From Bacteroidaceae bacterium (GTDB taxonomy: Bacteria; Bacteroidota; Bacteroidia; Bacteroidales; Bacteroidaceae), in assembly GCA_017464345.1 (NCBI GenBank), contig JAFUAH010000019.1, positions 1-64,000 of the forward strand: 64,000 nt of DNA, in the 5' to 3' direction. Both the position numbers and the translations under genes were made by a program. The notes under the pieces were generated by a model. That model worked only from the letters and a program-made list of their open reading frames with translations, ran no database searches and was not told the DNA's origin. This document shows positions 20,019 to 52,563 of the stretch, in pieces; position 1 is the stretch's first letter; every line of letters begins with the position of its first letter.

Positions 20019-20132
20019 GCAGGGCTCTTGCTTGTGGGTCAATTGTCCGTCAAGCGAAACCCGTACGGGACGAAGCTCCGACTCGGGCGAGTCGGTCTTG
20101 ACGGACAATTGACCCACAAGCAAGGGCCCTGC
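20019..20132. repeat. 90-bp palindromic element, copy 1 (core 20031-20120)
   Basis: The core has 24-bp arms at 20031-20054 and 20097-20120 that are perfect inverted repeats, starting CTTGTGGGTC and ending GTCCGTCAAG. They enclose 42 bases that hold a CCCGTACGGG palindrome and a CCGACTC-GGGC-GAGTCGG hairpin. In this copy the stem extends to 36 bp with one T/C difference. It lies between converging genes, the GH2 hydrolase and murF-alr. The other copies are at 35366-35455 and 52473-52562. It may act as a terminator here, but no T-run follows on either side. Confidence 0.95.
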
Positions 20133-20137
20133 ACCTT

Positions 20138-22513
20138 TCATTCTTTATAATATACGCGCTTGACGCGATTGCTGACAGCCGTCAGCACCTCGTAGGGAAT
20201 GGTGTCGCAGACATCGCTAAGGCGAGTGACGGGCAGGGCGGAACCAAATATGACGGCTTCGTCGCCCTCACGGCATGGTATGTCGGTGACGTCTATCATG
20301 CAGACATCCATACAGATGTTGCCCACATAGGGCGCCAATTGTCCGTTCACCAGACAGGCAGCACGTCCCTGGCCCAGGTGGCGGTTCAGCCCATCAGCAT
20401 AGCCGATGGGCAGGACGGCGATGCGACTGTCGCGGCAAAGGCGCCCACGCCGACTGTAGCCCACTGTCTCGGTCTGGGGTACATCATGGATTTGCAGGAT
20501 GGTGGTTTTCAACGTAGAAACATTGTTTAGGGGTTGGTTATCTCGTGGATTGATGCCATAGAGGCCCAGGCCCAGGCGCACCATGTCCATGTGGCGCTGG
20601 GGGAAGTGCTCGATGCCAGCAGAGTTGCAGATATGCCGCAGTATGCGATGCCCCACGTAAGCAGCCTGCAGGACATCGGCACCGAAGGTGAAGCGACGAA
20701 ACTGTTCGTCGGAGAAGTCGTCCAGATGGTCGTCATCGCTACCCACGAAATGGGAGAAGACGCTGCGTGGCAGAACGGCATCCTGGCTGCGCAGGCGCTC
20801 CACCAGACGGGGCATGTCGCGTTCAGGGTCGAAGCCGAGACGATGCATGCCGGTGTCCAGTTTGATGTGTACGGGAAAACCCTTTATGCCCTCACGCTCA
20901 GCGGCGGCGATGAGGGCATCGAGCAGGCGGAAGGAATAGACCTCGGGCTCAAGACCGTGACGGAAAAGAGTACGGAAGGAAGTCATCTCAGGATTCATAA
21001 TCATGATACCCGTGGAAATACCTGCCTGGCGCAACTGCACTCCCTCGTCGGCCACGGCTACGGCCAGATAGTCCACACCATGGTCCTGCAGGGTGCGCCC
21101 CACCTCCACACTACCGGCCCCATAGGCATCAGCCTTCACCATGCATATCATGCGCACATCGGGTTTCATCAGGGAACGGTAGTAATTGAGGTTGGCCACC
21201 AAGGCATTAAGGTCCACCTCCAAGATAGTCTCATGGACACGTTCCTCCAGCCGGGCCACAAGAGCCTCGAAATGGAAGGCGCGGGCACCCTTGATGAGCA
21301 CCACCTGCTCCTGCAGGCGAGCCAAGAACTGACTGGAGAGGAGGTCGTCGGTGTCTGGGAAGAAATGGCACTGAGCGCCCGTACCCTTCATGAGCGTGAG
21401 GGCCATGGAGCAGATGGCAGGCCCTACGCCGACGAAGGTGTCCACCCCCGCCTGATGTACCAGCTGGGCCACCTCCTGATAGAGGCGTTCGTCGGGGATT
21501 CCGGTCTGCTGCATATCGCTCAGGATGAGGGTGTGGCTGCGTCCGCTCTCGTCGGGACGGCGATTCATGAAGTCCAGGGCGATGCGCAGAGAGTCAGGGT
21601 CATTGTTGTAAGAGTCGTTGATGAGGGTGCATCCGCCGTGGCCGTTCATCACCTCCAGTCGCATAGGTACGGGTTCCAACTGGGCCATGCGCTGGCGCAC
21701 GGTCTCCTCCTCCAGCCCTAAATAGCGGCAGGCTGCAGCACAGAGTTCCTTATCCAAATCCCAGGGAGAGACATCGGGCGAGACGCTAACGGGAATGAGC
21801 TTGCCCGGGAAGCCACACTCGCGTATGCAGATGTCCACCACGCGGTTGCCCGTGGGGTAGACCAGTGCCTCAGCATCACGGAAAAGGCGAAGTTTCTCCA
21901 GACACTTCTGACGATAAGAAGTAAAATTCTCCTGATGGGCGTCGCCCAGCCCCGTGAAGACACCCAGCGTGGGCTGTACGATGGCCGCCAGACGCTCCAT
22001 CTCGCCGGGCTGGCTGATGGCGGCCTCGAAGATGCCAATCTGAGTCTCCTCGCTCAGACTCCAGACGGAGAGGGGGACACCAATCTGACTGTTGTAGCTG
22101 CGAGGGGAGCGAGTGACGACATGGTCGGGAGAAAGCATCTGCGACAGCCATTCCTTGACCATGGTCTTGCCGTTGCTGCCAGCAATGCCCACTACCGGCA
22201 CGCAGAAGCGCCGACGATGCTCAGCGGCCAGATGCTGCAGTGCAGCCAGTGTGTCGGGCACTTGCAGGAAAACGGCTCCAGGCAGGTCATCCCCAGGCAG
22301 CATGCTGACTACGAAGGAGCGCACGCCACGCTGATAGAGCTGGGAAACATAGCGGTGACCGTCGCCACGGGATGTGACAAGGGCAAAGAACAGTGTATCC
22401 TCGGGTGAAGAGAGACTACGGCTGTCCGTCAGCAACCAGCGCACAGGCTGGTCGGTCTGGGTCGTCACTTTGGCACCAAGGATGGCGGCTATAGATTGTG
22501 TAGTGTATGTCAT
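20138..22513 (-). CDS. murF-alr: Bifunctional MurF ligase / alanine racemase
   Basis: The 791-residue fusion protein combines UDP-MurNAc-tripeptide D-Ala-D-Ala ligase (residues 1 to about 425; ATP loop GSNGKT at 112-117) with a PLP-dependent alanine racemase (about 425-791; PLP lysine K460 in VKADAYGAG; C-terminal SRRGRLCRDSRIAVLPIGYADG). It makes D-Ala from L-Ala and adds D-Ala-D-Ala to the peptidoglycan precursor in the cytoplasm. The fusion is typical of Bacteroidetes. I start at 22513 (MTYTTQSIAAILGAK), which is the usual MurF N-terminus and lies 29 bases after the GSCFA gene, so the two form an operon. An in-frame extension to 22675 overlaps GSCFA and is unlikely. Confidence 0.93.
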   Translation of the reverse strand: MTYTTQSIAAILGAKVTTQTDQPVRWLLTDSRSLSSPEDTLFFALVTSRGDGHRYVSQLYQRGVRSFVVSMLPGDDLPGAVFLQVPDTLAALQHLAAEHRRRFCVPVVGIAGSNGKTMVKEWLSQMLSPDHVVTRSPRSYNSQIGVPLSVWSLSEETQIGIFEAAISQPGEMERLAAIVQPTLGVFTGLGDAHQENFTSYRQKCLEKLRLFRDAEALVYPTGNRVVDICIRECGFPGKLIPVSVSPDVSPWDLDKELCAAACRYLGLEEETVRQRMAQLEPVPMRLEVMNGHGGCTLINDSYNNDPDSLRIALDFMNRRPDESGRSHTLILSDMQQTGIPDERLYQEVAQLVHQAGVDTFVGVGPAICSMALTLMKGTGAQCHFFPDTDDLLSSQFLARLQEQVVLIKGARAFHFEALVARLEERVHETILEVDLNALVANLNYYRSLMKPDVRMICMVKADAYGAGSVEVGRTLQDHGVDYLAVAVADEGVQLRQAGISTGIMIMNPEMTSFRTLFRHGLEPEVYSFRLLDALIAAAEREGIKGFPVHIKLDTGMHRLGFDPERDMPRLVERLRSQDAVLPRSVFSHFVGSDDDHLDDFSDEQFRRFTFGADVLQAAYVGHRILRHICNSAGIEHFPQRHMDMVRLGLGLYGINPRDNQPLNNVSTLKTTILQIHDVPQTETVGYSRRGRLCRDSRIAVLPIGYADGLNRHLGQGRAACLVNGQLAPYVGNICMDVCMIDVTDIPCREGDEAVIFGSALPVTRLSDVCDTIPYEVLTAVSNRVKRVYYKE

Positions 22514-22542
22514 ATCGGGATGAAGTTTGTGAATATATTGAT

Positions 22543-23517
22543 TTAGAGATTTAGTTCCGGATAGTCGGCCGCCAACTGGCGCATCTTGTCGTCCAGCCTG
22601 CGGTGCAGCTGCTCGCTGGCCTCCGACTCGGGATGCAGAGGACGGTGCTGAGCCATGCGGGCCACATCGGCCCATCGGGCCAGATACTCACGGGCCTCCT
22701 GCGAGAACCATGCAGACTGCATCCGTTGCCAGATATACTGCACGGCCTGGGCCGAGGGGTGGAGCATATCGTCGGCATAGAAACGGTAGTCGCGCAGTTC
22801 GTCCAGCACGATTTCGTAGGCCGGGAAATAGGTCACCCACTTCGGGTGACGACGTTGCAGAACATCGGCCATGCACAACAGGTGAGCCTTGCCCAACTGG
22901 CTCTCATGGAAACCGTATTTCCGGTAGCGATAGGGGCTCACCGTCAGCACCACCTGTAGGTGCGGATTGTGTTCGTACAATGGCAGCAGTGCCCCCTCCA
23001 GGGCTTCCGCCATCTCGTCGGCATCCATCACCCTCTCTACAAAGTCACGCCGCTGCACCTTGTGGCAATTGGCCACGGGGTGAACGGCGTCACGGTAGGC
23101 ATAGTAGTGGTTAGTGCCAAAGGTAAGAAACAGGTGGTCGGCCCCGGCCAGCGCTTCGCGCAACTGGTTCAGCGCTTCCTCGGTGGCTTGTCGGCAGGCC
23201 TCCAGGGTGGGGCGCGAAAGGGAACTGTCACCCAGCCATGTATGCCACAGTCCACCATCCTGGACATAGTCGCTGACGGGGTCAGTCTGGAGCGGAGCCG
23301 TCAGCAACCGGACGATGCTCATGGGGTTGTACATCACACCCAGAGGATTCACCGTCACGCGCAGCCGGCTCTCCCGGAAACATCCGCCCACGTGCTCTGC
23401 AAAACAAGAACCCAGAAACACACTCCTGTCCCCCACCCTTATCGGGTGCAAAGGCTCCGGCACGTCCACTGGCGTGCGCAGCAAAGGTAGTTCAGATATG
23501 GCTTTCGCGGTGTGCAT
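22543..23517 (-). CDS. GSCFA domain protein
   Basis: The 324-residue protein contains the name-giving LGSCFAEHVG motif (residues 35-44) and the downstream FLTFGTNHYYAYRDA and LTVSPYRYRKYGFHESQ blocks. These resemble SGNH/GDSL-like hydrolases, with S37 and a C-terminal HPSAQAVQYIW segment as likely catalytic parts. The substrate is unknown. Its constant place next to murF-alr in Bacteroidetes suggests a cell-envelope role. I start at 23517 (MHTAKAISELPLL), preceded by a TAATTTTG box at 23539-23546; an in-frame extension to 23568 lies upstream of that box. Confidence 0.85.
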   Translation of the reverse strand: MHTAKAISELPLLRTPVDVPEPLHPIRVGDRSVFLGSCFAEHVGGCFRESRLRVTVNPLGVMYNPMSIVRLLTAPLQTDPVSDYVQDGGLWHTWLGDSSLSRPTLEACRQATEEALNQLREALAGADHLFLTFGTNHYYAYRDAVHPVANCHKVQRRDFVERVMDADEMAEALEGALLPLYEHNPHLQVVLTVSPYRYRKYGFHESQLGKAHLLCMADVLQRRHPKWVTYFPAYEIVLDELRDYRFYADDMLHPSAQAVQYIWQRMQSAWFSQEAREYLARWADVARMAQHRPLHPESEASEQLHRRLDDKMRQLAADYPELNL

Positions 23518-23538
23518 GAACTTTTGCTTTTCCGACTG

Positions 23539-23546
23539 CAAAATTA
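23539..23546 (-). promoter_or_regulatory. Promoter -7 box TAATTTTG for GSCFA-murF-alr
   Basis: CAAAATTA on the plus strand reads TAATTTTG on the minus strand, 21 bases before the GSCFA ATG. Confidence 0.5.
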
Positions 23547-23638
23547 ATGATTTCCCCCGACATGGCACTACGCAACGGGCTAAAAAAGCAATGCAGAAGA
23601 GCGAATATGGCCTTTTCGGGACAATATCGCAGACAGAA

Positions 23639-23670
23639 TTTGGCCATACGGCGAGAATTTTGTAACTTTG
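23639..23670 (+). promoter_or_regulatory. Full Bacteroidetes-type promoter (TTTG -33, TAACTTTG -7) for the lipoprotein gene
   Basis: TTTG at 23639-23642 and TAACTTTG at 23663-23670 are 20 bases apart, the expected spacing. The leader to the ATG at 23755 is about 80 bases. Confidence 0.65.
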
Positions 23671-23754
23671 CGTCCGGTTTCAGAGAAGCCATGACTACAG
23701 AATAACAAAATACATAGCAACACTACATCGTTTATATTTATCCAAATCACAACA

Positions 23755-25236
23755 ATGATGAAAAAGAACATAATCCTCTGGCTGATGATCTCAGCCACGC
23801 TGATGACCGGGATGCTGACTTCATGCTCCAGCGACGGGACATCGGCCCTCCTCAACGACGAAGTTCGCCCCGACTTTGGCTTGGTGCGCACCCCTGACTT
23901 CCGCGCCTACTCCGGTAGCAGCGAACTTATTGTTACCCCCCCCACTCGTTCGGCTAACGTAAACGGCAATCTCTGGTATCAGGAATGGCAGCGCCCCACC
24001 AACGTCACCCCCGAAGAGGTGGAACGCGTAGTTGCCGAATTCAGCACTCCACGTCCGGATGCTCACAACACACGTCAGGTGACGTGGCGCAACTTCTGGG
24101 TACAGCAGGTCTACAAAGGCGAAGCTACTTATACCGACGGCTACGGACAGAACATCGGCCGTGCCTCTGACAAGATGAATCACCTGCAAGTGTTCAACAA
24201 CCTGCGAGAGAATGTCATCAGTTGGTGGCCCAAGGAAGTCGAAATCGAAGAATGGGCCGGCAGCTATGAGCACATCAACAACTTCAACAATGGCACAAAC
24301 ACTACGGTCTACACCGATGACGTGACGGGCCAACAGTACGTGGGCACCACACTGATGGTGACCATGGGCAGCGACGGACGTGCCGAGCAGTTTGCATACC
24401 ACAATACGGTGGACAGCAAATACCACTACGACTACATCATCCTGGAAATAGACGGTGCCTATTACGTAGGCTTTGACTTCTACGCCCACGGCACCGACGA
24501 CTACCCTGCCAACAAGAACATGGATGTGGAGCGCGACTGGGTCTTCAACGACTGGATCGTAAAAATCAGTCCAGCACAAAAGCTGGGTGAGTCCGAGGCT
24601 GACCCGACCTTACCCACTATTGACCCGACAACTCCTCCCAGCATTCCAGACACTCCCTCAGTGGGCGAGGTGGAAGTGAACCTCTCCATCAATGCACCGC
24701 GTGAGAAGGATGACTACATTGCCACCAAGCTCTCCATCCATGTCCGCGACACCACAGATGTGGAGGTCTTCATCCCCGTAGAAGCACAGTACTACTGCGA
24801 CACCGATGATATGAACATCGTTCTTTCCCATCGGCTGGAGGCTGAAATCCACAGCCCACTCTCGACATCGGCCACCTACGTCATCGACGGTCACGAGGTG
24901 ACGGCCACCGTCAGTTACGAGTTGGGTGGCATCCGCATCCAAACCCATGGCATCAACGCCGAAGTGCTAAAGTACCTGCGCAATCAGTATGGCGACGGCA
25001 TCACATTCGAAATCTGGAACTACTACAACAATCAGGGCACGCGCGAGACCCTGAAGCCATTGTTCGATGCATCCACCGTCACATTCACCAACGCCACAGA
25101 CCAGTACATCAACGCCTTTGCCCGCCTGGGCGAGGAACGCAATCCGCTGGACTGCACAGTGACACCGCCCGCTGAATACGGCGAAGGCCAGGCTAACGAC
25201 GGAACTGCCAACTACAACGTTATATACAGAAAATAA
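23755..25236 (+). CDS. Large lipoprotein of unknown function
   Basis: The 493-residue protein has a lipoprotein signal ending MTGMLTSC (Cys 23). The mature part has an N-terminal region of about 270 residues with many Trp and Asn (NLWYQEWQRPTNVTPEEVE, WRNFWVQQVYKGEATYTDG). A Pro-rich linker (DPTLPTIDPTTPPSIPDTPS) and a C-terminal beta-rich domain of about 190 residues follow. I do not recognise the domains. The position suits an outer-membrane surface or periplasmic lipoprotein. It has its own promoter and is followed by a strong terminator at 25282-25332, directly before the exopolysaccharide-like gene cluster. Start may be 23755 or the next ATG at 23758. Confidence 0.75.
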   Translation: MMKKNIILWLMISATLMTGMLTSCSSDGTSALLNDEVRPDFGLVRTPDFRAYSGSSELIVTPPTRSANVNGNLWYQEWQRPTNVTPEEVERVVAEFSTPRPDAHNTRQVTWRNFWVQQVYKGEATYTDGYGQNIGRASDKMNHLQVFNNLRENVISWWPKEVEIEEWAGSYEHINNFNNGTNTTVYTDDVTGQQYVGTTLMVTMGSDGRAEQFAYHNTVDSKYHYDYIILEIDGAYYVGFDFYAHGTDDYPANKNMDVERDWVFNDWIVKISPAQKLGESEADPTLPTIDPTTPPSIPDTPSVGEVEVNLSINAPREKDDYIATKLSIHVRDTTDVEVFIPVEAQYYCDTDDMNIVLSHRLEAEIHSPLSTSATYVIDGHEVTATVSYELGGIRIQTHGINAEVLKYLRNQYGDGITFEIWNYYNNQGTRETLKPLFDASTVTFTNATDQYINAFARLGEERNPLDCTVTPPAEYGEGQANDGTANYNVIYRK

Positions 25237-25281
25237 AAACTGGCAGACCGTGCACCCCCACCCTTAGCACACACATCCAAA

Positions 25282-25332
25282 GAGAAGATGACAGGAGGCC
25301 GACACGCCACCAGTCATCTTCTCCTATTTTTT
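25282..25332 (+). terminator. Rho-independent terminator or attenuator just before the HEAT-like gene
   Basis: GAGAAGATGAC (25282-25292) pairs with GTCATCTTCTC (25313-25323) and is followed by CTATTTTTTTA. The run of T ends only a few bases before the ATG at 25337, leaving no room for a promoter in between. Confidence 0.8.
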
Positions 25333-25336
25333 TACC

Positions 25337-26626
25337 ATGGAAACTATATCGACCCTGAGTTACTACTTTCACCTGCTTGCGACGTATACGACCTATTATT
25401 CGTCGTACTGGCGCGACCTATATCGCGACTACCCCTACGAGGTGAAGACTGCCATCTGGGTTATCCAGTGGGCCCTGATACTCATCGTCATCCTCACCAT
25501 CATCCTCGAACACCGAGGCCACCTGCGCCGCAAACGCGAACGCATGGAAGCCAGACTGGAAGAACGCTATGGCGAAGCCTTGAATCATATCTTCGCTACC
25601 GACAACGACCATCAGATTACGCGTGACGAGATAATCTCCCGGTTCCACCTCAGCAGTAAGGAGGCTTCGAAGCACGGACTGTTGCGCGACGATGGCGAAC
25701 GCCGAACCATGTGCCGAATGATATACCATCGCCTCATGAACGACGAAACGGCCGGCCCCAACCGCCAGAAAAACCTACAACTGCTACTGGACATCTTCGC
25801 ACTGCCGTCCTTTCTGGAGGGGGAGGTCAGCCTGGGCAATATGAATAACAAAATGACTGCCATGACCATGATACGCGCCTTCCGCCTCTACATCAGTCCG
25901 TGGGTCATAAACAAACTTCTCAATTCCAAGCAAACACAGGTGCGCCGACTGGCCATGTACTCGTCCGTGATGTCCAGTTCCGACAGTGAACTGGAATACT
26001 TCGAGACCGACTTTTTTGATAAGAACTGTTGCATCTACGACGAAATAGAACTGGGCTATACCCTGCACCGCCGACGTGCAGCCGGACTTAAGTTGCCCAA
26101 CCTGGCACATTGGGCCCACCTACAGAAGAATGACAACACGAAGTGCATGTTCGTCCGCCTAATGCGCCGCTTCGACCAGCACGAATATTGCCACCAACTG
26201 GAAGACCTCTTCCGTGAAAGTAAACACAAAAAACTGATAGAGGAAATCTCGCGCACTTGGGGTTATCTCCACTACACCGAGAGTGAGCAACTGCTGGTAG
26301 ACACCATGCTCACCCAGCCTGACGACACAAAAGTGGCCATCATGCATGCTGTCACCCGCATGGCCTCGGGGCAAAGCCTCAGCCTGCTGCTAGACGGATA
26401 CGAGAATACCACCAATCCGCATGTTCGCTTCGAGGCGCTACGTTGTATGTACAGCTACGGTCAGGAGGGACGCGACCTGCTGGCACATCTGGAAAGCGAG
26501 GCACCAGAGGCAGACCATAAGTTCTTCAGTTTCTTCCACAACCCCATCACGCTCAACCGCATACCCTTGGACAAGGAACAAGCCTATCACCCCTCTGTAG
26601 AGACCGTATATAACCTTTCATACTAG
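25337..26626 (+). CDS. Membrane-anchored HEAT-repeat-like protein of the exopolysaccharide-like cluster
   Basis: The 429-residue protein has one clear membrane span (about 38-57, TAIWVIQWALILIVILTIIL), a basic stretch (RGHLRRKRERMEARLEER) and a long helical cytoplasmic region. Repeated helix pairs such as LLNSKQTQVRRLAMYSSVM and TNPHVRFEALRCMYSYG resemble HEAT repeats. Such repeats serve as protein-protein scaffolds. The gene is 46 bases upstream of a processive GT2 synthase on the same strand. It may be an inner-membrane partner that assembles or controls the synthase, in the place that PgaD or PilZ-containing subunits occupy elsewhere. This role is an inference from context. The only nearby control signal is the terminator at 25282-25332. 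Confidence 0.7.
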   Translation: METISTLSYYFHLLATYTTYYSSYWRDLYRDYPYEVKTAIWVIQWALILIVILTIILEHRGHLRRKRERMEARLEERYGEALNHIFATDNDHQITRDEIISRFHLSSKEASKHGLLRDDGERRTMCRMIYHRLMNDETAGPNRQKNLQLLLDIFALPSFLEGEVSLGNMNNKMTAMTMIRAFRLYISPWVINKLLNSKQTQVRRLAMYSSVMSSSDSELEYFETDFFDKNCCIYDEIELGYTLHRRRAAGLKLPNLAHWAHLQKNDNTKCMFVRLMRRFDQHEYCHQLEDLFRESKHKKLIEEISRTWGYLHYTESEQLLVDTMLTQPDDTKVAIMHAVTRMASGQSLSLLLDGYENTTNPHVRFEALRCMYSYGQEGRDLLAHLESEAPEADHKFFSFFHNPITLNRIPLDKEQAYHPSVETVYNLSY

Positions 26627-26672
26627 CCAAAGAAAAAAACTAAGAATAAAGAATAAAATTTGAGATAGTGCC

Positions 26673-30939: not shown

Positions 30940-30966
30940 TGAATCATTTCCTCCCCCTCACGAGAC

Positions 30967-32682: not shown

Positions 32683-32711
32683 GCAACACATAAAACGTAA
32701 ACGAACAACAG

Positions 32712-33299: not shown

Positions 33300-33308
33300 A
33301 CGCCTTCT

Positions 33309-34376: not shown

Positions 34377-34429
34377 GGCGATACCTTTTCTTACGGCTGC
34401 TATTTATTTTCTCTTTTCCTTTTACGTAT

Positions 34430-35248: not shown

Positions 35249-35358
35249 GGCTGCAATTTATGGGTTTCCTGTGTCAAAGGTAACCATTTCGCAGCAGACG
35301 GCCAAATATTACCAGTCTATTTTTCATGGCAAAGCATCCCGCATTGTCGGCAAGCACG

Positions 35359-35462
35359 GCTTCGCCTTGTGGGTCAATTGTCCGTCAAGGCCGACTCGCC
35401 CGAGTCAAAGCCCAGACCCGTACGGCTTTCGCTTGACGGACAATTGACCCACAAGGCGAAGC
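35359..35462. repeat. 90-bp palindromic element, copy 2 (core 35366-35455), inverted orientation
   Basis: Arms at 35366-35389 and 35432-35455 are identical to those of copy 1 over 24 bp, and the stem here is perfect over 31 bp (35359-35389 with 35432-35462). The 42-base centre matches the reverse complement of the centre of copy 1, so this copy is inverted. It lies between divergent genes (the ATPase and the nitroreductase), which excludes a pure terminator role. Confidence 0.95.
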
Positions 35463-35514: not shown

Positions 35515-35543
35515 TATCCGAGGAACCGATAAAACGTAAGCCT

Positions 35544-40916: not shown

Positions 40917-40940
40917 AAGTCGGAAGTCCTGTGAGATTTA

Positions 40941-41978: not shown

Positions 41979-42240
41979 TTGCTCTTTGTTTTTATAGGTT
42001 AGTACTAAATTTGTTTCCTTCTGTGTCATTATGGGAAACCAGCACTCACCTATGGGCATAAGAAAAGCGCAGGTCTTCACCATACGCTCCTCAAGGTTTG
42101 GTACTACCTACTAAATACTATGGCAAGCCTGCACTTCTTAGCACAAGCTACAATGTATTTAGTTTTGCTCGTACACTTTCCGAGGTACCAATTCGAGGAG
42201 CGATTGAGCAAATAACATGTCGTGCTTCCGCTGGAGCACG
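41979..42240 (-). promoter_or_regulatory. Long structured 5' leader of the two secreted-protein genes (riboswitch or attenuator candidate)
   Basis: From the TAATTTTG box at 42244-42251 the transcript would have about 260 untranslated bases. Near its 5' end GTGCT..AGCAC forms a hairpin. At 42067-42136 AGTGCAGG-CTT-GCCATA pairs with TATGGT-G-AAG-A-CCTGCGCT, a stem of about 17 bp with one or two bulges around a 34-base loop. No known riboswitch class was recognised. Confidence 0.5.
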
Positions 42241-42243
42241 GGA

Positions 42244-42251
42244 CAAAATTA
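42244..42251 (-). promoter_or_regulatory. Promoter -7 box TAATTTTG upstream of the structured leader
   Basis: CAAAATTA on the plus strand reads TAATTTTG on the minus strand. It lies upstream of the hairpins at 42067-42136 and of the ATG at 41978. Confidence 0.45.
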
Positions 42252-42310
42252 TGGATTATTTATGAAAGAACAAAGAAAAAGCCCGAAAAGTTTGGCGGTG
42301 TAATTTGATT

Positions 42311-43093: not shown

Positions 43094-43094
43094 G

Positions 43095-43153
43095 TCTTCA
43101 ACTTATCAACTTTCAACTTTCATTTTTCAACTTTCAACTTTCAACTTTCAATT
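43095..43153. repeat. TTTCAACTTTCAAC tandem array overlapping the end of the glycosyltransferase gene
   Basis: About seven imperfect copies of CAACTTT fill the spacer between the methyltransferase and the glycosyltransferase. They also supply the last codons of the latter (KLKVES). Confidence 0.75.
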
Positions 43154-45520: not shown

Positions 45521-45524
45521 ATTG

Positions 45525-45532
45525 CAAAGATA
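45525..45532 (-). promoter_or_regulatory. Promoter -7 box TATCTTTG four bases before the mtaB start
   Basis: CAAAGATA on the plus strand reads TATCTTTG on the minus strand and is followed by CAAT and ATG. The predicted transcription start falls at or next to the start codon. Confidence 0.6.
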
Positions 45533-45703
45533 GCATAAATCACGCGAAGAGCCAAATTTTTCAAACATACATGAAAAAAGCCCGGAATCTGGCAAAATCA
45601 TACTTCTCTATAAATCAGCATATTATTAAAACTATTATTAAAAACATTAAAAAAAGTTGAAAAAAAGTTGCCCTTAAGTGATACAACGTATTGAAATAAG
45701 TCG

Positions 45704-45711
45704 TACCTTTG
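45704..45711 (+). promoter_or_regulatory. Promoter -7 box TACCTTTG for the small lipoprotein
   Basis: TACCTTTG matches the consensus. The 160 bases upstream are very AT-rich, and the leader to the ATG is about 50 bases. Confidence 0.6.
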
Positions 45712-45762
45712 CATCGGTTTTAAAAGCAATTGATTGTTTTATTAATTTAACTAAGTAAAAAA

Positions 45763-45927
45763 ATGAAAAAGTTAGCATTCTTGTTCGTAGCTGTTGCAGC
45801 TATCTCGTTCGCTTCTTGCGGTAATGGCACTCAGCAGGCTGAGGCCGAGGACACCACTGCAGTAGACACTGTTGAGGTTGTTGATACCGTTGCAGCTGAC
45901 ACCGTAGCTGCCGACACTGTTGCCTAA
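45763..45927 (+). CDS. Small acidic lipoprotein with Val-Asp-Thr repeats (54 aa)
   Basis: The 54-residue product has a lipoprotein signal (KKLAFLFVAVAAISFASC, Cys 19). The mature peptide of about 36 residues is acidic, made of TVEVVDTV / AADTVAADTVA repeats and has no aromatic residue. It is framed by a TACCTTTG promoter with an AT-rich upstream region and by a strong terminator at 45954-45989, as for a highly expressed single gene. Small lipoproteins of this type are common and unstudied in Bacteroidales. A Braun-lipoprotein-like or surface-coating role is possible but unproven. Confidence 0.75.
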   Translation: MKKLAFLFVAVAAISFASCGNGTQQAEAEDTTAVDTVEVVDTVAADTVAADTVA

Positions 45928-45953
45928 GTATTAGCATACGGACAATAGGTCTT

Positions 45954-45989
45954 AGAGGGATTGCACGATAGTGCAGTTCCTCTTTTCGT
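45954..45989 (+). terminator. Terminator of the small lipoprotein gene
   Basis: AGAGGGATTGCAC pairs with GTGCAGTTCCTCT around GATA and is followed by TTTTCGTTT. Confidence 0.8.
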
Positions 45990-46024
45990 TTATTACGGAT
46001 ACATATCATTCTGAACTATACAAT

Positions 46025-46059
46025 AAGAGGAGGCATGTCGCTTTGACATGCCTCCTCTT
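46025..46059. terminator. Hairpin between the small lipoprotein and rplI (terminator of the ribosomal operon)
   Basis: AAGAGGAGGCATGTC (46025-46039) is perfectly complementary to GACATGCCTCCTCTT (46045-46059). On the minus strand TTATTGTAT follows. Confidence 0.7.
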
Positions 46060-46078
46060 GCTATTGGACTCGTATAGT

Positions 46079-46612
46079 TTACTCGGCAACGGGAGCCTCA
46101 GCCTCGGCAGCAGGAGCCTCTTCTACTACGGGAGTCTCCTCTACAGCAGGAGCTTCCTCGACTGCGGGAGCACCCTCGGCAATGACGGTGAAGGGGATTT
46201 CTGCACTGACCTCCTTGTGGAGCTTCACGACAGCCACGTAGTCGCCTACGGTCTTCACATCCTTCACGACAATCTTCTTGCGATCTATGTCGAAGCCCAA
46301 CTTCTGGAGTTCGTCGGCAATCTGCAAGGAGTTCACGCTGCCATAGATGGAACCCGTGGCACTCACCTTGGTGACAATGGTCAGGGCAACACCGGCCAAC
46401 TTGTCGGCAACAGCCTGAGCCTCAGCCTTGATCTTAGCCAGTTTCACAGCCTGCTGGCGCAGGTTCTCGGCGAGCACCTTCTTAGCGCTCGGACTAGCGA
46501 TGACACCCTTGCCCTGGGGGATAAGATAGTTACGTCCGTAACCAGACTTAACATTCACGATATCGTTCTTGTAACCCAAGCCGATAACATCTTCTTTCAG
46601 AATAATTTCCAT
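46079..46612 (-). CDS. rplI: 50S ribosomal protein L9
   Basis: The 177-residue protein has the standard L9 N-terminal domain (MEIILKEDVIGLGYKNDIVNVKSGYGRNYL), the connecting helix and the C-terminal rRNA-binding domain ending near PFTVIAEG. An acidic Ala/Glu/Pro/Val tail of about 30 residues follows (EEAPAVEETPVVEEAPAAEA) which bacterial L9 proteins outside this group usually lack. L9 lies at the base of the L1 stalk and helps keep the reading frame. It is the last gene of rpsF-rpsR-rplI, 21 bases after rpsR, and ends before the hairpin at 46025-46059. Confidence 0.95.
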   Translation of the reverse strand: MEIILKEDVIGLGYKNDIVNVKSGYGRNYLIPQGKGVIASPSAKKVLAENLRQQAVKLAKIKAEAQAVADKLAGVALTIVTKVSATGSIYGSVNSLQIADELQKLGFDIDRKKIVVKDVKTVGDYVAVVKLHKEVSAEIPFTVIAEGAPAVEEAPAVEETPVVEEAPAAEAEAPVAE

Positions 46613-46633
46613 ATATCTTACCTCCTACTTTAA

Positions 46634-46903
46634 TTATTTCATCAAATCGGTTACGAAGGGCAGCAGAGCCAGATGGCGGGCACGCTTAACAGCCTGGGCC
46701 ACGCGGCGCTGATACTTCAGAGAGGTGCCTGTGATGCGGCGGGGGAGAATTTTGCCCTGCTCGTTCAGGAACTTCTTCAGAAATTCGGGATCCTTATAAT
46801 CGATGTACTTGATACCGCTCTTCTTGAAACGGCAATACTTCTTGCGCTGCGTATCGATAGCAGGAGCGTTGAGATAACGGATTTCAGATGATTGCTGTGC
46901 CAT
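46634..46903 (-). CDS. rpsR: 30S ribosomal protein S18
   Basis: The 89-residue protein has the S18 core [24 protein letters not shown] and [33 protein letters not shown]. It binds the platform of the small subunit next to S6. It lies two bases after rpsF, the conserved order for the S6:S18 pair. The N-terminal 20 residues ([20 protein letters not shown]) are the usual extension in Bacteroidetes. Confidence 0.96.
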
Positions 46904-46905
46904 GA

Positions 46906-47253
46906 TTAAGCCTCCTCTTCCTTCTTGTTAAATTTGTTTCTTCTCTTCTCTGCATACTGGGCAGCATACTTCTCGTTCTTGATGGTCAGGAAACGGATGA
47001 CCCTCTCGTCACGACGGAAGTTTACTTCCAGCTTCTTGATGAGCTCGGGCTGAGCCTTGAACTCGAACATTACATAGAAACCCGTAGATTTTTTCTGGAT
47101 AGGATAAGCCAACTTCTTCAGGCCCCACAGTTCCTCGTTGATGAGTTCTGCACCGTTGTCGGTGAGCAGGCCTTTGAACTTGTTTACCGTTTCCTTCATC
47201 TGATCGTCAGACAAAACGGGAGTTAAAATGAAAACGGTTTCGTACTGGTTCAT
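46906..47253 (-). CDS. rpsF: 30S ribosomal protein S6
   Basis: The 115-residue protein begins [26 protein letters not shown] and contains [21 protein letters not shown] and [16 protein letters not shown], the S6 signature. It ends with a basic/acidic tail ([12 protein letters not shown]). S6 binds S18 in the platform of the small subunit. It is the first gene of the operon, behind a TACCTTTG box at 47302-47309 with a leader of about 45 bases. In other bacteria the rpsF leader can bind S6:S18 for feedback; the leader here is short and A/T-rich, and I see no clear structure. Confidence 0.96.
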
Positions 47254-47301
47254 AATACGTTTTTAATGAGTTAATAAATAGTATTTTTGCATAAAGCGGT
47301 G

Positions 47302-47309
47302 CAAAGGTA
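47302..47309 (-). promoter_or_regulatory. Promoter -7 box TACCTTTG for rpsF-rpsR-rplI
   Basis: CAAAGGTA on the plus strand reads TACCTTTG on the minus strand. A CTTG (TTTG-like) sits 20 bases further upstream. Confidence 0.6.
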
Positions 47310-47496
47310 GTGTTTTTTCCCGATATTACCAAGTATTTCGTCTTTTAATATCACAAAAATTATGTACTCAGGCCATATAAGGCATGAATATGGTCTTCAA
47401 ACGTTTTTTTTAGCGGAAAAGTTTCGCCGTGTCATTTTTTTTGTGTTATTTTGCATCTGATAAGTGCGAATTAGAAACAATAAAACAGAATATATT

Positions 47497-47661
47497 ATGA
47501 CAAAGTATGCAGGAATTGGGCTTATCGTCTTGGGTGCCCTTGTTCTTTTAATTAGTTATTTTGCGGAGTTGGTGGACATGAACCCTGTTCAGTTCACAGG
47601 TCTTGGACTGATTATCGCCGGTCTCATAGCCCACATTATCATCACCCGCCGCACAAAGTAG
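47497..47661 (+). CDS. Small two-span membrane protein (54 aa)
   Basis: The 54-residue protein has two hydrophobic segments, AGIGLIVLGALVLLISYFAE (5-24) and TGLGLIIAGLIAHIIITRR (33-51), with a short polar hairpin between (LVDMNPVQF). The end is basic (TRRTK), which predicts both termini in the cytoplasm. I recognise it as a small Bacteroidetes membrane protein without known role. I start at 47497 (MTKYAGIG), since the upstream part of the frame is not hydrophobic. A strong hairpin at 47693-47731 follows. Confidence 0.7.
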   Translation: MTKYAGIGLIVLGALVLLISYFAELVDMNPVQFTGLGLIIAGLIAHIIITRRTK

Positions 47662-47692
47662 GCCGGAAGACAGCCGTATGGCCCTTCACCTT

Positions 47693-47731
47693 ACAAGGGG
47701 GCACTTCATTCATCTTGAAGTGCCCCCTTGT
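47693..47731. terminator. Bidirectional terminator between the small membrane protein and rprY
   Basis: ACAAGGGGGCACTTCA (47693-47708) pairs perfectly with TGAAGTGCCCCCTTGT (47716-47731) around a seven-base loop, between converging stops. Confidence 0.85.
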
Positions 47732-47761
47732 CATTTATCGGCAACGGATTACATCATCTCG

Positions 47762-48472
47762 TCACTCCTCTACTTTCACTCCGCCAGGAGCTATCAGCTT
47801 GTAGCCCTTGCCGTGCACGTTGTTGATTTCGATGTCAGGGTCGGCCTTGAGGTGCTTGCGTAGCTTGGTGATGTAGACATCCATGGAACGGGCATTGAAG
47901 TAGTTGTCATCTATCCAGATAGTCTTCAAGGCCAGTTCGCGCAACAGAACGTCGTTGGCGTGGGCACAGAGCAGGCCCAGGAGTTCGCTCTCCTTGGTGG
48001 TCAGTTTCACTTGTTCGGAACCGATGGTGAGCATCTGGCGCTGGGTGTCGAACAGGAACTTGCCCAGCCGGTAGCAGACCACCGTCGGTGCCACAGTCCC
48101 CTTCACACGGCGCAGAATGGCCTCCATGCGGAACACTAGTTCGTCCATGGAGAATGGTTTGGTCAGATAGTCGTCGGCTCCGATTTTGAAACCTTCGAAG
48201 ATATCTTCCTTGAGATTACGCGCTGTGAGGAATATGATGGGCACCGTGGCATTCACCTTACGTATGTCCTGGGCCATGGTGAAGCCATCCTTCTTGGGCA
48301 TCATGACATCCAGCACACACATGTCATAGTGCCCTCTCATGAAGGCTTTCATGCCTGCTTCGCCATCCAGATACAGTTCGGCATCGTATCCCTTGGCCTG
48401 CAAATACTCTCTCAACAGCATGCCCAGGCTCTCGTCGTCCTCGCATAGCAGAATGTGTAGTTTCGTATCCAT
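47762..48472 (-). CDS. rprY: OmpR-family response regulator (RprY type)
   Basis: The 236-residue protein has a receiver domain (HILLCEDDESLG; phospho-acceptor D55 in CVLDVMMPKKDG; K105 region LTKPF) and a winged-helix output domain (LTTKESELLGLLCAH, NARSMDVYITKLRKHL, NNVHGKGYKLI). It matches RprY, a Bacteroidetes regulator implicated in stress and envelope responses. It follows the sensor kinase gene after 32 bases on the same strand, so the two form an operon. Targets cannot be named from this window. The call RprY rather than another OmpR member rests on the pairing and overall similarity. Confidence 0.85.
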   Translation of the reverse strand: MDTKLHILLCEDDESLGMLLREYLQAKGYDAELYLDGEAGMKAFMRGHYDMCVLDVMMPKKDGFTMAQDIRKVNATVPIIFLTARNLKEDIFEGFKIGADDYLTKPFSMDELVFRMEAILRRVKGTVAPTVVCYRLGKFLFDTQRQMLTIGSEQVKLTTKESELLGLLCAHANDVLLRELALKTIWIDDNYFNARSMDVYITKLRKHLKADPDIEINNVHGKGYKLIAPGGVKVEE

Positions 48473-48504
48473 CGTGTTATATTTTGTATGTTATTCTTGT
48501 ACGG

Positions 48505-50022
48505 TCAGGTCTTCAGCGTGGGCAGCATTATCGTGAACGTGGTTCCCTGCCCTGGTTCACTTTCTACCTTGATGGTCCCCTTGTGCTGGCGCACCATGTT
48601 CTTGACGTAGGCCAGGCCGATGCCAAATCCCTTGACGTTATGCTGGTTACCGGTATGCACACGGTAGAATTTCTCGAAGATGCGCTTCAAGTCTTCCTTC
48701 TTGATGCCTATGCCATTGTCGCGGATGCTCATGACGTACTTCTGCCCCATATTGTGTGTGGAGACAGCGAGATGGAGGGGCACGTCGTCGCGCCGATACT
48801 TCACGGCGTTGTCCAGCAGGGTGGAGATGACATTCGTGAGGTGCATCTCATCGAAGTATACGTTGGGATTCTCAGCTTCGAGCGATGCATCTATGATGCC
48901 GCCCAGGCGCTCTACCTTCAGGGCGAAGGACGTCCCGATGATGTTCTCCAACAGTTCGTCGGCATTCAGTTCTACGGGCTTCAGGGCGATGTTGTCATGG
49001 TCGTATAGCGACATTTGCAGTACCTTCTCCACCTGATAGCGCAGACGCTTGGTCTCGGTGTCTATCACCTTGCCCAGATTGTCGTACATGGCCGGTGTCT
49101 TCTTCACGGTGTCGTCGGCCAGCATCTGTGCGGCCAGTGACAGGCTGGCTATGGGGGTCTTGAACTCATGGGTCATGTTGTTCACAAAATCGTTTTTCAT
49201 CTCATTGATTTTGCGCTGACGAGCAAAGAGATAGATGGTGAACATGAAGGTGATGAACAGGACGAAGGTGAAGACCATGGCCGGGACCATCAAACGTGCC
49301 ACCCCCAGCACATAGCGGTTACGGCCGGGGAAGTGTACCCTGACGATGCCCATGTTGTTGGCCGGATCGTTACGAAAGAGGGTCTGCGTGTAGGTGTAGT
49401 CCCCTCCCCTTTCCTCATAGTCCGGACAGCGATAGACCTCGCGCCCGTCACTGGTGGAGATGGTGAAGTGGAAGGGCAGGGTCACACCATTCTGCTCCAG
49501 GTTCATGCGCAGACAGGCATCCAGGAACTTCGGATTGATGCGCTGTTCGAAGGAGTTTTCGCTGGCATTATAGAGGATGGAGTAGATGACCTCGTCCAGT
49601 ATGCCTTTCTGATAGAGGTAGGCATTGCGCACGGCCATCTGGAACTGCTGCGAGGCCAAGGGGAAGGACTGGCGTTGGTTCATACCCAGCGAAAGGCGCG
49701 GCATCATGCTGATAGTGTCGAAGCGCTGTACCCCCATCAGTGTGGGGTTGCCCAGGACCTTGCCCACGTGTGGGCTATGGTCGTCGCCATCCATCTCGGC
49801 CAGTTCCTCCACGTAGTTGGAGACGATGCCCTCCAGGTAGTTGAAGGTCTCGTTGCGCTCCAAGTCGTGCGAAGCCTGGTCCAGACTGCGCTTCACGCTT
49901 TCATCGAACTGGTCCTTGCGCATCTTCACCATCATGCCCGTGTATTGGCTTTGCAGCAGCAGCAACACAACGAAACTGACGCCAATGCTTATGCTTATGA
50001 CCCAAAGTACCCAACGTTTCAT
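48505..50022 (-). CDS. rprX: Sensor histidine kinase (RprX type)
   Basis: The 505-residue inner-membrane kinase has an N-terminal span (about 4-23), a periplasmic sensor region of about 220 residues without a known domain, and a second span (about 245-267). HisKA (NNMTHEFKTP, H285) and HATPase domains follow, with N box STLLDNAVKY, G1 IRDNGIGI and G2 GFGIGLAYV. It should phosphorylate the RprY-type regulator. The ATG at 50022 follows the TATCTTTG box at 50027-50034 by only four bases, so the mRNA is predicted to be leaderless. The terminator of the upstream EF-G gene lies directly before this promoter. Confidence 0.88.
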   Translation of the reverse strand: MKRWVLWVISISIGVSFVVLLLLQSQYTGMMVKMRKDQFDESVKRSLDQASHDLERNETFNYLEGIVSNYVEELAEMDGDDHSPHVGKVLGNPTLMGVQRFDTISMMPRLSLGMNQRQSFPLASQQFQMAVRNAYLYQKGILDEVIYSILYNASENSFEQRINPKFLDACLRMNLEQNGVTLPFHFTISTSDGREVYRCPDYEERGGDYTYTQTLFRNDPANNMGIVRVHFPGRNRYVLGVARLMVPAMVFTFVLFITFMFTIYLFARQRKINEMKNDFVNNMTHEFKTPIASLSLAAQMLADDTVKKTPAMYDNLGKVIDTETKRLRYQVEKVLQMSLYDHDNIALKPVELNADELLENIIGTSFALKVERLGGIIDASLEAENPNVYFDEMHLTNVISTLLDNAVKYRRDDVPLHLAVSTHNMGQKYVMSIRDNGIGIKKEDLKRIFEKFYRVHTGNQHNVKGFGIGLAYVKNMVRQHKGTIKVESEPGQGTTFTIMLPTLKT

Positions 50023-50026
50023 GGTG

Positions 50027-50034
50027 CAAAGATA
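50027..50034 (-). promoter_or_regulatory. Promoter -7 box TATCTTTG four bases before the rprX start
   Basis: CAAAGATA on the plus strand reads TATCTTTG on the minus strand and is followed by CACC and ATG. Confidence 0.6.
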
Positions 50035-50046
50035 CGGAAAAATGTT

Positions 50047-50084
50047 AAAAACGGAGTGAGAAACGTCTGTCTCTCACTCCGTTT
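50047..50084 (-). terminator. Terminator of the EF-G-like gene
   Basis: AAACGGAGTGAGA (50049-50061) pairs with TCTCACTCCGTTT (50072-50084). On the minus strand CCGTTTTTAACA follows. It lies 25 bases past the stop at 50109. Confidence 0.8.
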
Positions 50085-50108
50085 TTAGCATTATTAACAT
50101 TCGAGGGG

Positions 50109-52262
50109 CTATTCTGCCGACTCAGCCTCGTGTTCCTTGATGAGTTTCAGCTGCACGTCAGCGGGCACGAGTTCATAGCTGGCGAAGCTCATGATGAAGC
50201 TGGCCCGGCCGCCCGTCAGGCTGCTCAGTGCCGTGCTGTAGGACGACATCTCCTTCAGCGGAGCACGTGCGGTCAGTTTCTCATAGCCATTCTCGCTGGT
50301 CATGCCCATAATCATGGCCCGACGTCCCTGCAGGTCGCTCATCACGTCGCCCAGTTTGTCACTCGGCACGAACACCTCCACGTCGTAGATGGGCTCCAGA
50401 ATCTTCGGCCCGGCCTCACGGAAAGCCTGTGCGAAGGCCTGACGACCGGCAAGCATGAAGGAGAGTTCGTTGCTGTCCACAGGGTGCATCTTGCCGTCAT
50501 AGACGATGACGCGCACGTCACGAGCGTAGCAGCCCGTCAGCGGGCCCTGCTCCATGCGCTGCATGACGCCCTTCAGGATGGCGGGCATGAAGCGTGCGTC
50601 GATGGCACCGCCCACCACAGAGTTGATGAACACGAGCTTGCCACCCCACTCCAGGTCGATGACTTCCTCGCTCTTGGCATTGATGCGGAATTCCTGATTG
50701 CCGAACTTGTAGACCTCGGGAGCGGGCATACCCTCGTAGTAGGGCTCCACGATGAGGTGCACCTCGCCGAACTGACCTGCGCCGCCAGACTGTTTCTTGT
50801 GGCGATAGTCGGCCCGGGCTGCCTTGGTGATGGTCTCGCGATAGGGTATCTTGGGCTCGTCGAACTGTATCTGTATCTTTTCGTTGTTCTCCATGCGCCA
50901 CTTCAGCGTGCGCAGGTGGAATTCACCCTGACCGTGCACCAGTATCTGCTTCAGTTCCTTCGACTGCTCGATCTGCCACGTGGGGTCTTCCTCGCGCATC
51001 CGCTGCAGGGCATTCATCATCTTCTCGGTCTCACTCTCGTTCACGGCACGGATGGCACGCGAGTACTTCGAGTTGGGATACTTAATGAAGTTGAAGCGGT
51101 TCTCAGCATTCTTGTCGTTCAGCGTGTTACCGGTCTTCACGTCTTTCAGCTTCACGGTACAGCCTATGTCGCCAGCCACCAGTTCCTCCACCTTGATGCG
51201 GTTCTGGCCGGCACAGCAGAAGAGCTGGGCCATGCGCTCCTTCGAGCCACGGTCGGCATTCGTCAGGTCGTCGCCCTCGTGCACGCGGCCGCTCATCACC
51301 TTGAAGTACTGCACCTCGCCGATGTGCGGCTCCACGCTGGTCTTGAAGAAGAAGAGGCTGGTGGGGCCGTCGGCCTCGGGTTTCACCTCTGCGCCACGGG
51401 TGTTGTAGACGGGAGGCATCTCATCGACGAAGGGAACCACGTTGCCCAGGAACTCCATCAGGCGGCGTACGCCCATGTCCTTGCCTGCGCATACGCAGAA
51501 GACAGGGAACATGCCGCGCATGGCCAGTCCCTTGCGGATGCCTTCGCGCATCTCGTCCTCGGTCAGTGTCTCGCTCTCGAAGAACTTCTCCATCAGTGCC
51601 TCGTCGTTCTCGGCAGCAGCCTCCACCAGAGCCTTGTGCAGTTCGGTAGCCTTCTCCATCTGGTCGGCGGGGATGTCCTCGATGGTGGGTGCACCGCCCT
51701 CGGGGCCCCACGAGTACTTCTTCATCAACAGCACATCGATGACGGCATTGAAGTTGGGACCGGTCTCAATGGGATACTGTACGGGCACTACCTTGGAACC
51801 ATAGATGTCGGTCAGTTGCTCCAGTATGCGGTCGTAGTCGCAGTTCTCGTCGTCGAGCTGGTTCACCAGGAAGATGACGGGCTTGCCCAGTTTCTCGGTA
51901 TAGCGGAAGTGGTTCTGCGTGCCCACTTCCACGCCGTTGGCGCCCTTCAAGAGCAGCACGGCCGTGTCGGTCACGTTCAGGGCCGTCATGGCTGCGCCCA
52001 CAAAGTCATCCGAACCCGGACAGTCGATGATGTTCAGTTTCTTTCCATTCCACTCTACATGGAACACGGTCGAAAAGACCGAGTAGCCGTACTCCTGCTC
52101 CACGGGGAAGTAGTCGCTCACGGTGTTTTGCTGCGTGATGCGGCCACGACGCTTGATGATGCCTGCTTCATAGAGCAGGCTCTCCGTCAGGGTTGTCTTT
52201 CCGGCACCGTCATTGCCTAACAGGGCAATGTTTTTGATCTCATGAGTCTGATAAACTTTCAT
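50109..52262 (-). CDS. EF-G paralogue with altered GTPase motifs (EF-G2 type)
   Basis: The 717-residue protein has all EF-G domains. The P-loop is GNDGAGKTT (16-24). The G3 motif is DCPGSDDF (80-87) where EF-G has DTPGHVDF, so the catalytic His is Ser84. Switch I reads EQEYGYSV instead of EKERGITI, and G4 is NQLDDE instead of NKMD. Domain IV has the usual tip (RFMPAILKGVMQRMEQGPL). This fits the second EF-G of Bacteroides, reported to work in translation without GTP hydrolysis during carbon starvation and to aid gut colonisation. It is a single gene with its own terminator. The ordinary fusA must lie elsewhere in the genome. Confidence 0.85.
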   Translation of the reverse strand: MKVYQTHEIKNIALLGNDGAGKTTLTESLLYEAGIIKRRGRITQQNTVSDYFPVEQEYGYSVFSTVFHVEWNGKKLNIIDCPGSDDFVGAAMTALNVTDTAVLLLKGANGVEVGTQNHFRYTEKLGKPVIFLVNQLDDENCDYDRILEQLTDIYGSKVVPVQYPIETGPNFNAVIDVLLMKKYSWGPEGGAPTIEDIPADQMEKATELHKALVEAAAENDEALMEKFFESETLTEDEMREGIRKGLAMRGMFPVFCVCAGKDMGVRRLMEFLGNVVPFVDEMPPVYNTRGAEVKPEADGPTSLFFFKTSVEPHIGEVQYFKVMSGRVHEGDDLTNADRGSKERMAQLFCCAGQNRIKVEELVAGDIGCTVKLKDVKTGNTLNDKNAENRFNFIKYPNSKYSRAIRAVNESETEKMMNALQRMREEDPTWQIEQSKELKQILVHGQGEFHLRTLKWRMENNEKIQIQFDEPKIPYRETITKAARADYRHKKQSGGAGQFGEVHLIVEPYYEGMPAPEVYKFGNQEFRINAKSEEVIDLEWGGKLVFINSVVGGAIDARFMPAILKGVMQRMEQGPLTGCYARDVRVIVYDGKMHPVDSNELSFMLAGRQAFAQAFREAGPKILEPIYDVEVFVPSDKLGDVMSDLQGRRAMIMGMTSENGYEKLTARAPLKEMSSYSTALSSLTGGRASFIMSFASYELVPADVQLKLIKEHEAESAE

Positions 52263-52471
52263 AATATTAGGTTTTAAGATATCTGTATGCCTTCTATATA
52301 TATTATATAATAGGTATTCTTGGCATTTTTGCCTATTTTAGGCCCATTCGGTTTGCAATTTAGCGAAAACCTTCGATGTGGCCAAATGTTTTTCCGCTTT
52401 TTTACAAAAAATCCGTATATAAGTCCCGTTTCAGTCCCGAGGGCACGCACCGAGGGTTCCCTAGGGCCTTT

Positions 52472-52563
52472 CCTTGTGGGTCAATTGTCCGTCAAGCGAG
52501 ACCCGTACGGGTCGGGGCTCAGTCTCGGGCGGGTTTCGCTTGACGGACAATTGACCCACAAGG
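52472..52563. repeat. 90-bp palindromic element, copy 3 (core 52473-52562)
   Basis: Arms of 24 bp at 52473-52496 and 52539-52562 are identical to those of copies 1 and 2. The centre is again 42 bases, with CCCGTACGGG at its left and a GTCTCGGGCGGG segment at its right, in the orientation of copy 1. It lies between divergent genes. Confidence 0.95.

Follow-up and report, generated by a model that had tools for sequence, protein, structure and literature searches.

The window analysed here, the first 64,000 nucleotides of contig JAFUAH010000019.1 of a Bacteroidaceae bacterium (GCA_017464345.1), carries three copies of a 90-bp palindromic element in the spacers between its genes. Copy 1 (20031-20120, + strand) consists of arms at 20031-20054 and 20097-20120 around a centre at 20055-20096; copy 2 (35366-35455, - strand) has arms at 35366-35389 and 35432-35455, and copy 3 (52473-52562, + strand) at 52473-52496 and 52539-52562. 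As the initial annotation had described, the 24-bp inverted arms, CTTGTGGGTCAATTGTCCGTCAAG and its reverse complement, are the same in all three copies, every centre is 42 bp long, and the centre of copy 2 is reversed relative to those of copies 1 and 3. Because the arms are symmetric, only the centre gives an orientation. Two features absent from that annotation are that each 24-bp arm is itself palindromic and that weaker palindromes lie outside the arms. Complementarity continues beyond the 24 bp in every copy: copy 1 reaches 28 bp and copy 2 reaches 32 bp, and in copy 3 it spans 34 bp at 97%.

The three copies also occupy the contexts first assigned to them, one convergent and two divergent. 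The genes around copy 1 converge, with called stops at distances of 51 and 17 bp; copy 2 sits in a divergent spacer with called starts 117 bp away on one side and 88 bp on the other; and copy 3 lies between divergent fusA-like and hemW-like genes (gene names throughout are by-eye readings of translations). An element in a related genome, G155 below, also adjoins its fusA-like gene. Copy 1, the copy on which folding was done, is predicted to be far more stable than expected (z = -8.1 as DNA and -8.7 as RNA, with 0 of 200 shuffles equally stable). Its predicted minimum-energy fold, a 24-bp stem around two small hairpins, agrees with the three-way junction proposed earlier; one of the hairpins is absent from the DNA centroid.

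The element family and its spacing

The home genome (G000; 1.9 Mb in 37 contigs, 61% complete) contains 34 matches to the arm at three or fewer mismatches, and a reversed-pattern control gives none, so the matches are not due to chance. These matches come from 15 pairs with the window's type of arm, from a hybrid pair that contributes one arm, and from three single arms; contig 11 holds a further pair whose arms are a different, perfect palindrome. Two-armed elements in G000 thus number 17, with a 42-bp centre in 17 of 17, alongside the 3 single-arm copies, and the smallest distance between separate elements is about 15 kb. Two of these elements are odd: the one at L200:2001-2090 has perfect palindrome arms and an unrelated centre, and the one at L041:3935-4024 is a hybrid with a different left arm. 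The initial annotation would have been refuted if the window held the only copies and relatives had no counterpart, or if the copies were segments of a larger duplication. The 17 copies and the counterparts with other arms in congeners dispose of the first outcome, and the second was rejected on the flanks, which over up to 2.5 kb around the 17 elements are unrelated, with nothing in common at E ≤ 1e-20 except one 106-bp pair (L037/L038).

The arm, called P here, is a quasi-palindrome of the form CTTG-N5-CANNTG-N5-CAAG. Across 61 genomes of the genus it occurs 32 times in G000, 42 times in G001, 15 times in G027 and 0-4 times in the remainder, with 0-2 matches to a reversed control. The pair pattern P-N36..50-P is confined to 4 of 139 genus genomes (15 in G000, 11 in G001, 7 in G027 and 35 in G155; control 0). 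When we scanned public species genomes (84,980 species by the tool's description), the P pair was found in 51 stretches, all from the three rumen Bacteroidales metagenome-assembled genomes (MAGs) RUG12892, RGIG8165 and RGIG10229, which are equated with G155, G001 and G027, respectively, on identical contig coordinates. The exact window-arm pattern has no match in the public genome or viral sets; in these scans, as in those for the P pair, records of the home genome or of a very near one may be missing. The window arm at two or fewer mismatches is absent from 60 congeners and from 40 genomes of the same order. A phage or plasmid origin was rejected: no blastn hit spanned 80% of the query (best E 0.08), and the P pair occurs in 0 viral contigs.

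Each carrier species has arms of its own, for example CTTGACACACAGCTGTGTGACAAG in G001, CTTGCGTCACAATTGTGACGCAAG in G027 and CTTGACGCACAATTGTCCGTCAAG in G155, and the centres differ too. The ends of P are symmetric (CTTG...CAAG) in all four species, a feature partly fixed by the search pattern outside G000, and in none of them does P end in an unpaired GTAG or CGTC tag. One G027 locus (L148:1839-1994) has three P at 66-bp spacing, arranged P-42-P-42-P with the middle P common to both units.

Palindromy averaged over the 17 G000 copies has its main centres at 12, 34, 56 and 78 from the first base (z = 14-16), with weak outer peaks at -10 and 100 (z about 6). The G000 element is therefore a series of up to six palindromes 22 bp apart, Y-P-Y-Y-P-Y, in which Y denotes the smaller palindromic modules and the outermost two correspond to the weak peaks. 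In copy 1, position 34 is filled by the palindrome CCCGTACGGG (20060-20069) and position 56 by GACTCGGGCGAGTC (20080-20093). Its flanks at 20019-20030 and 20121-20132 take the place of diverged outer Y modules at the weak positions -10 and 100; they are complementary with mismatches, giving an inverted repeat of 57 nt overall at 81% (none of these four features carries a strand). The lattice is not a clean one, since side peaks occur inside the arms at 17.5 and 72.5 (z = 10.9) and at 6.5, 26.5, 66 and 83.5 (z > 5), and the element's own centre also peaks (45, z = 8.5).

Much the same arrangement recurs in the other carriers. Main peaks fall at 12, 34, 56 and 78 in G155, together with a right outer peak at 100 (one base longer in copies with 43-bp centres); at 12, 34.5, 57 and 79 in G001, with no outer peaks; and at 12, 56 and 78 in G027, with none at 34. 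Side peaks are present in all three as well. Even 15 single P sites of G001 have peaks at -10, 12, 34.5, 57 and 79. Centre length is 42-43 in 35 of 35 G155 elements, 43-44 in 10 of 10 from G001 and 42 in 6 of 6 from G027. The unit of the element is two 24-bp P, nearly always inverted, around two Y, with weaker Y-like palindromes outside and a spacing of about 22 bp. The sequence of the modules differs between species while this geometry hardly does.

Within each of the four species, mean pairwise identity is 94-98.5% for arms and 50-86% for centres. The initial annotation took perfect arms as a sign of recent spread, and dispersal is borne out; as the sole explanation, recent spread does not account for arms that average 94% identity in G000 beside centres at 71%. 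This difference indicates that arms are preferentially kept or homogenised. Arm pairs are perfectly complementary in 15 of 17 G000 elements, 30 of 35 in G155, 4 of 6 in G027 and 1 of 10 in G001 (10 of the 11 G001 pairs were used in the analyses). In G000, an altered arm usually has a partner altered to match: CCATTG occurs in both arms of two elements, and CAGCTG in both arms of one.

We compared two ways of pairing P in an alignment, A1, holding 17 of 17 elements from G000, 10 from G001, 7 from G027 and 16 of 35 from G155. Arm to arm, 98.0% of cells are paired (49 distinct rows) and the covariation score is 0.370 versus 0.095; sliding the alignment lowers pairing to 31-40%. Two-sided changes occur in 12 of 24 arm-to-arm pairs, nearly all of them in free columns, the other rows having been fetched by a pattern that fixes 12 of the 24 arm columns outside G000. 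With P taken as its own hairpin, 87.6% of cells are paired and the score is 0.212; in G000, 27 of 34 arms have three mismatched self-pairs, compared with perfect cross-pairing in the 15 elements noted above. These data favour arm-to-arm pairing over hairpins within P, with the qualification that the self-symmetry of P prevents a clean separation of the two.

Empty sites and gene context

We followed seven gene ends that adjoin G000 elements through eight near congeners; at three spacers, aroB|FKBP, cmk|ispH and glmM|next, both neighbours are conserved (distances were taken from the ends of matches and hold to within some tens of bases). From start to next start, aroB|FKBP measures about 376 bp in G000 versus 127-158 in the six congeners fetched of the eight; from the cmk-like stop to the ispH motif, the distance is 169 in G000 versus 17-81 in 8 of 8 congeners. 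The element is absent at these two spacers from all six and all eight congeners, respectively, and the extra length in G000 is about 90-250 bp, mostly more than the 90-bp core. Because the element is missing and the spacers are shorter at two conserved gene pairs, we conclude that the element inserts, and the filled aroB|FKBP and cmk|ispH sites represent gains in G000's line, unless it was lost many times.

The third spacer is less simple. The glmM|next distance is 465 in G000, 482 in G001, which has its own element there, 517 in G155, which has a different array, and 268-343 in G166, G154, G172 and G027; the motif was not found in G057 or G037. Three species thus have three different palindrome elements upstream of the glmM-like gene (L035 in G000, L143/L288 in G001, L291 in G155): the G000 and G001 elements are P elements with different arms, and that of G155 is a 21-bp-period array with 21-bp inverted ends. 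Sites in common amount to one two-sided case with G001 (glmM-like) and one with G155 (fusA). As this is about chance level (under one each, by a rough estimate), we do not claim ancestry. At the four other spacers (alr, HD, dxs and ispD), the neighbouring gene differs or was not identified, which leaves no two-sided comparison, and synteny in 11 congeners was too poor for an empty-site comparison of the spacer upstream of the fusA-like gene. A tree of G000 and its eight near congeners from GlmM and Dxs fragments had no starred branch and did not resolve.

Of 68 copies examined in the four carriers, none lies inside a called gene, and in one case there is a 5-bp overlap with a called end. Called neighbours exist on both sides of 63 copies, which divide into 26 divergent, 13 convergent and 24 same-strand contexts, subject to errors of the gene caller, which missed ispH and so classed L040 as convergent when it lies between same-strand cmk-like and ispH-like genes; other assignments may err likewise. 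The L040 element ends 34 bp before the ispH-like start. Among 80 start sides, the shortest distances to a called start are 38, 67 and 76 bp; the 51 stop sides include distances as short as 12 bp, several copies lying 12-40 bp from a called stop. These distances fit an element tolerated where promoters are spared. With 26 of 63 copies between divergent genes, the element is not simply a terminator, as had been argued from the window, and we reject a terminator as its general role.

Interpretation and alternatives

Taken together, the data suggest that the element is probably mobile, non-autonomous and REPIN-like, residing in the intergenic DNA of a few uncultured, closely related rumen Bacteroidales. 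The initial annotation had proposed a dispersed element resembling repetitive extragenic palindromes (REPs) or REPINs, and 17 two-armed copies, their intergenic positions and sites empty in congeners uphold it. We propose that a trans-acting enzyme would recognise P, probably as a single-stranded DNA hairpin or as a dimer site, and would copy or move the P-Y-Y-P unit into spacers. The need for recognition, along with correction between arms within the hairpin, may keep the arms alike and leave the centres to drift, and the P of each species would evolve with its own enzyme.

REPIN-like elements are known with a REP-associated tyrosine transposase (RAYT) as partner, and a RAYT-type enzyme had been suggested as the mover here. 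The Pfam model Y1_Tnp (PF01797) gave nothing above cut-off in the carriers and weak matches below it in G001 (E 0.008 and 0.016). One of these is a RAYT-like open reading frame (ORF) with HIH and Y..NP motifs recognised by eye (C29:42968-44131; L330:1264-2430), which itself scores below cut-offs (Pfam E 0.0038; NCBIfam NF047646 2.1e-10). Pfam alone is therefore misleading for RAYT, and we searched the genus with that ORF. It matches 89 of 139 genomes, a divergent and widespread family with three matches in G001, one in G155 and none in G000; G027 is not among the 89. A second RAYT-like query matches only G037 among nine genomes. Among the matches listed, two of the four in carriers were located, leaving two of G001's three without a position, and neither P nor a half arm occurs around a doubtful weak match (L365, G001 C33).

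Several observations weigh against a mobile element of this kind. The first concern the mover. No RAYT was found in G000 or G027 by PF01797 or by the two RAYT-like queries, the surroundings of the two located RAYT-like genes (L366, G001 C29; L364, G155 C21) contain neither P nor a half arm, and the family also occurs in the non-carriers G172, G154 and G037, with G166 and G057 not among the 89. The distribution of the divergent RAYT-like family does not follow that of the element, and the members inspected do not adjoin it, so the suggested RAYT mover is not borne out; its absence is not proof, because the genomes are 61-85% complete. No gene in G000 is bracketed by an arm pair, in an assembly from which 39% is missing. 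The second group concern insertion itself. Target-site duplication is not clear in 68 flank pairs: the longest word common to both flanks averages 6.0, 5.8, 7.0 and 5.3 in G000, G155, G001 and G027 versus 5.7, 5.9, 6.3 and 5.7 in mismatched pairs, G001 alone being slightly above its control. Insertion boundaries cannot be fixed from the available comparisons, and the presence of an element in the glmM-like spacer of both G000 and G001 could reflect ancestry, not separate insertion.

The remainder concern the structure. Side peaks inside the arms exceed the outer peaks at -10 and 100, and G155 lacks the one at -10. The count of two-sided changes is barely above that of shuffles, which average 10.2 and reach 12 in 14 of 500 cases. 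Eight of 10 G001 pairs have AGCT in one arm and AATT in the other, and in 2 of 35 G155 elements the two P point the same way, so not every element requires a perfect long stem.

One alternative is that the element is an array for a host DNA-binding protein with a nucleoid or regulatory role, whose palindromes bind dimers stacked by the 22-bp spacing on nearly one helix face, the copies being selected and not selfish. The spacing and the nearly fixed centre length, kept in four species despite differing sequences, speak for such an array, as do the operator-like symmetry of P and the fact that arms are the best-conserved part. We nevertheless think it unlikely, given two spacers between conserved genes that lack the element in all congeners fetched, a pair pattern restricted to 4 of 139 genus genomes, an inconsistent gene orientation and a period, 22 bp, that is not an exact multiple of 10.5.

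Less probable still is a miniature inverted-repeat transposable element (MITE) whose terminal inverted repeats would be the 24-bp arms and whose mover would be an ordinary DDE transposase. Inverted ends, intergenic position, species specificity and a similar copy number would all agree with a MITE, and BrickBuilt, an intergenic 23-nt repeat array with IS5-like ends, is described from another member of the order (PMC4596501). Against such an origin stand the lack of clear flank duplication, arms that may not be true ends since weaker palindromes continue outside them, and the absence of any arm pair at transposon distance in the 61% of G000 assembled. A structured RNA element needed in transcripts, as a 3' end stabiliser or terminator, is highly improbable despite the high stability of the copy 1 fold, the arm-to-arm pairing maintained across species and the copies close to stop codons, since so many copies lie between divergent genes, one lies between the same-strand cmk-like and ispH-like genes, and Rfam covariance models returned 0 matches above gathering score in the 64-kb window.

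Related arrays and known systems

The window also contains an array without P (7485-7603, no strand), in which an alternating purine/pyrimidine tract that may begin before 7485 is followed by CCGTACGGG-type units spaced 22 bp apart. It belongs to a set of 17 Y-only arrays in G000 (the window array with L183-L190, L192-L199 and L201), built of CCCGTACGGG-type units about 22 bp apart and mostly near an alternating, Z-DNA-prone tract. The longest alternating run in the 17 averages 21 bp versus 8.9 in same-locus control windows, and 14 of 17 exceed the control maximum of 14; at P elements it averages 8.4 in G000 and 9.4-10.2 in other carriers, with single cases up to 22. The commonest distances between palindrome centres in these arrays are 44, 45 and 66, in a few cases each. 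The window array is flanked by a MATE-like efflux gene on one side and a clpB-like gene on the other, and BrickBuilt_16 of Porphyromonas gingivalis is likewise placed between a multidrug-efflux gene and clpB (PMC4596501), a similarity that may be coincidental. Congeners with or without P pairs have intergenic arrays of 21-23-bp period, or neighbouring palindromes, with unit sequences of their own (L308 in G057, L323 in G037, L219 in G166, L291 in G155). A separate window hairpin at 50038-50095 (27 bp, 89% complementary, 4-nt loop) adjoins the fusA-like gene and is possibly an ordinary terminator.

A wider and more tentative reading, which we regard as possible though doubtful, is that of a clade-wide class in which geometry is inherited and sequence is not. 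Palindromic modules about 22 bp apart, specific in sequence to each species, would form some arrays with paired P and others with a Z-DNA-prone tract at the end, and an undescribed enzyme or DNA-binding protein would both spread the arrays and evolve along with them. Whatever moves or binds it, the family combines REPIN geometry, sites empty in relatives and nearly fixed spacing with wholesale change of module sequence between close species. Spacing can be conserved where sequence is not, a form of conservation that sequence searches miss. Four related species with four arm sequences also provide a natural experiment, in which the mover or binder would be recognisable as a gene with a DNA-binding part that varies along with the arm.

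A search of open-licence papers yielded no paper on these elements, and several described systems resemble them in part. A REPIN is a REP doublet that forms a hairpin, and by the definition in PMC8049555 the likeness includes two inverted palindromic units, a short diverse spacer, hairpin formation, intergenic position, species specificity and some single arms. The present P differs in being 24 bp long, nearly symmetric and without a GTAG tail, and the spacer is itself two palindromes, nearly fixed in length at about 22-bp spacing. The element behaves as a REPIN does and shares its anatomy; we do not file it as one because a linked RAYT was looked for and not found. CGTC- and GTAG-tagged REPs are also palindromic extragenic repeats, with the unpaired tag that P lacks, and according to PMC3733652 the CGTC class also seems to be without a dedicated transposase. 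TnpA-REP subclass 2.6 of Bacteroidetes, as portrayed in PMC6006769, is similar in its atypical secondary structures with copies elsewhere in genomes; those structures flank their tnpA gene, and P is not near the two located RAYT-like genes. BrickBuilt of P. gingivalis, also in the Bacteroidales, is intergenic and species-specific, with a 23-nt repeat, 19 copies, long stem-loops and no Rfam match (PMC4596501). Its own features are a direct-repeat minisatellite of up to 22.8 units, a leader, a tail and IS5-like ends (GAGACC...GGTCTC). In contrast, the units described here are palindromic, P-Y-Y-P is short and nearly fixed, and IS ends were not identified. The nearer analogue of BrickBuilt is the set of Y-only arrays in G000.

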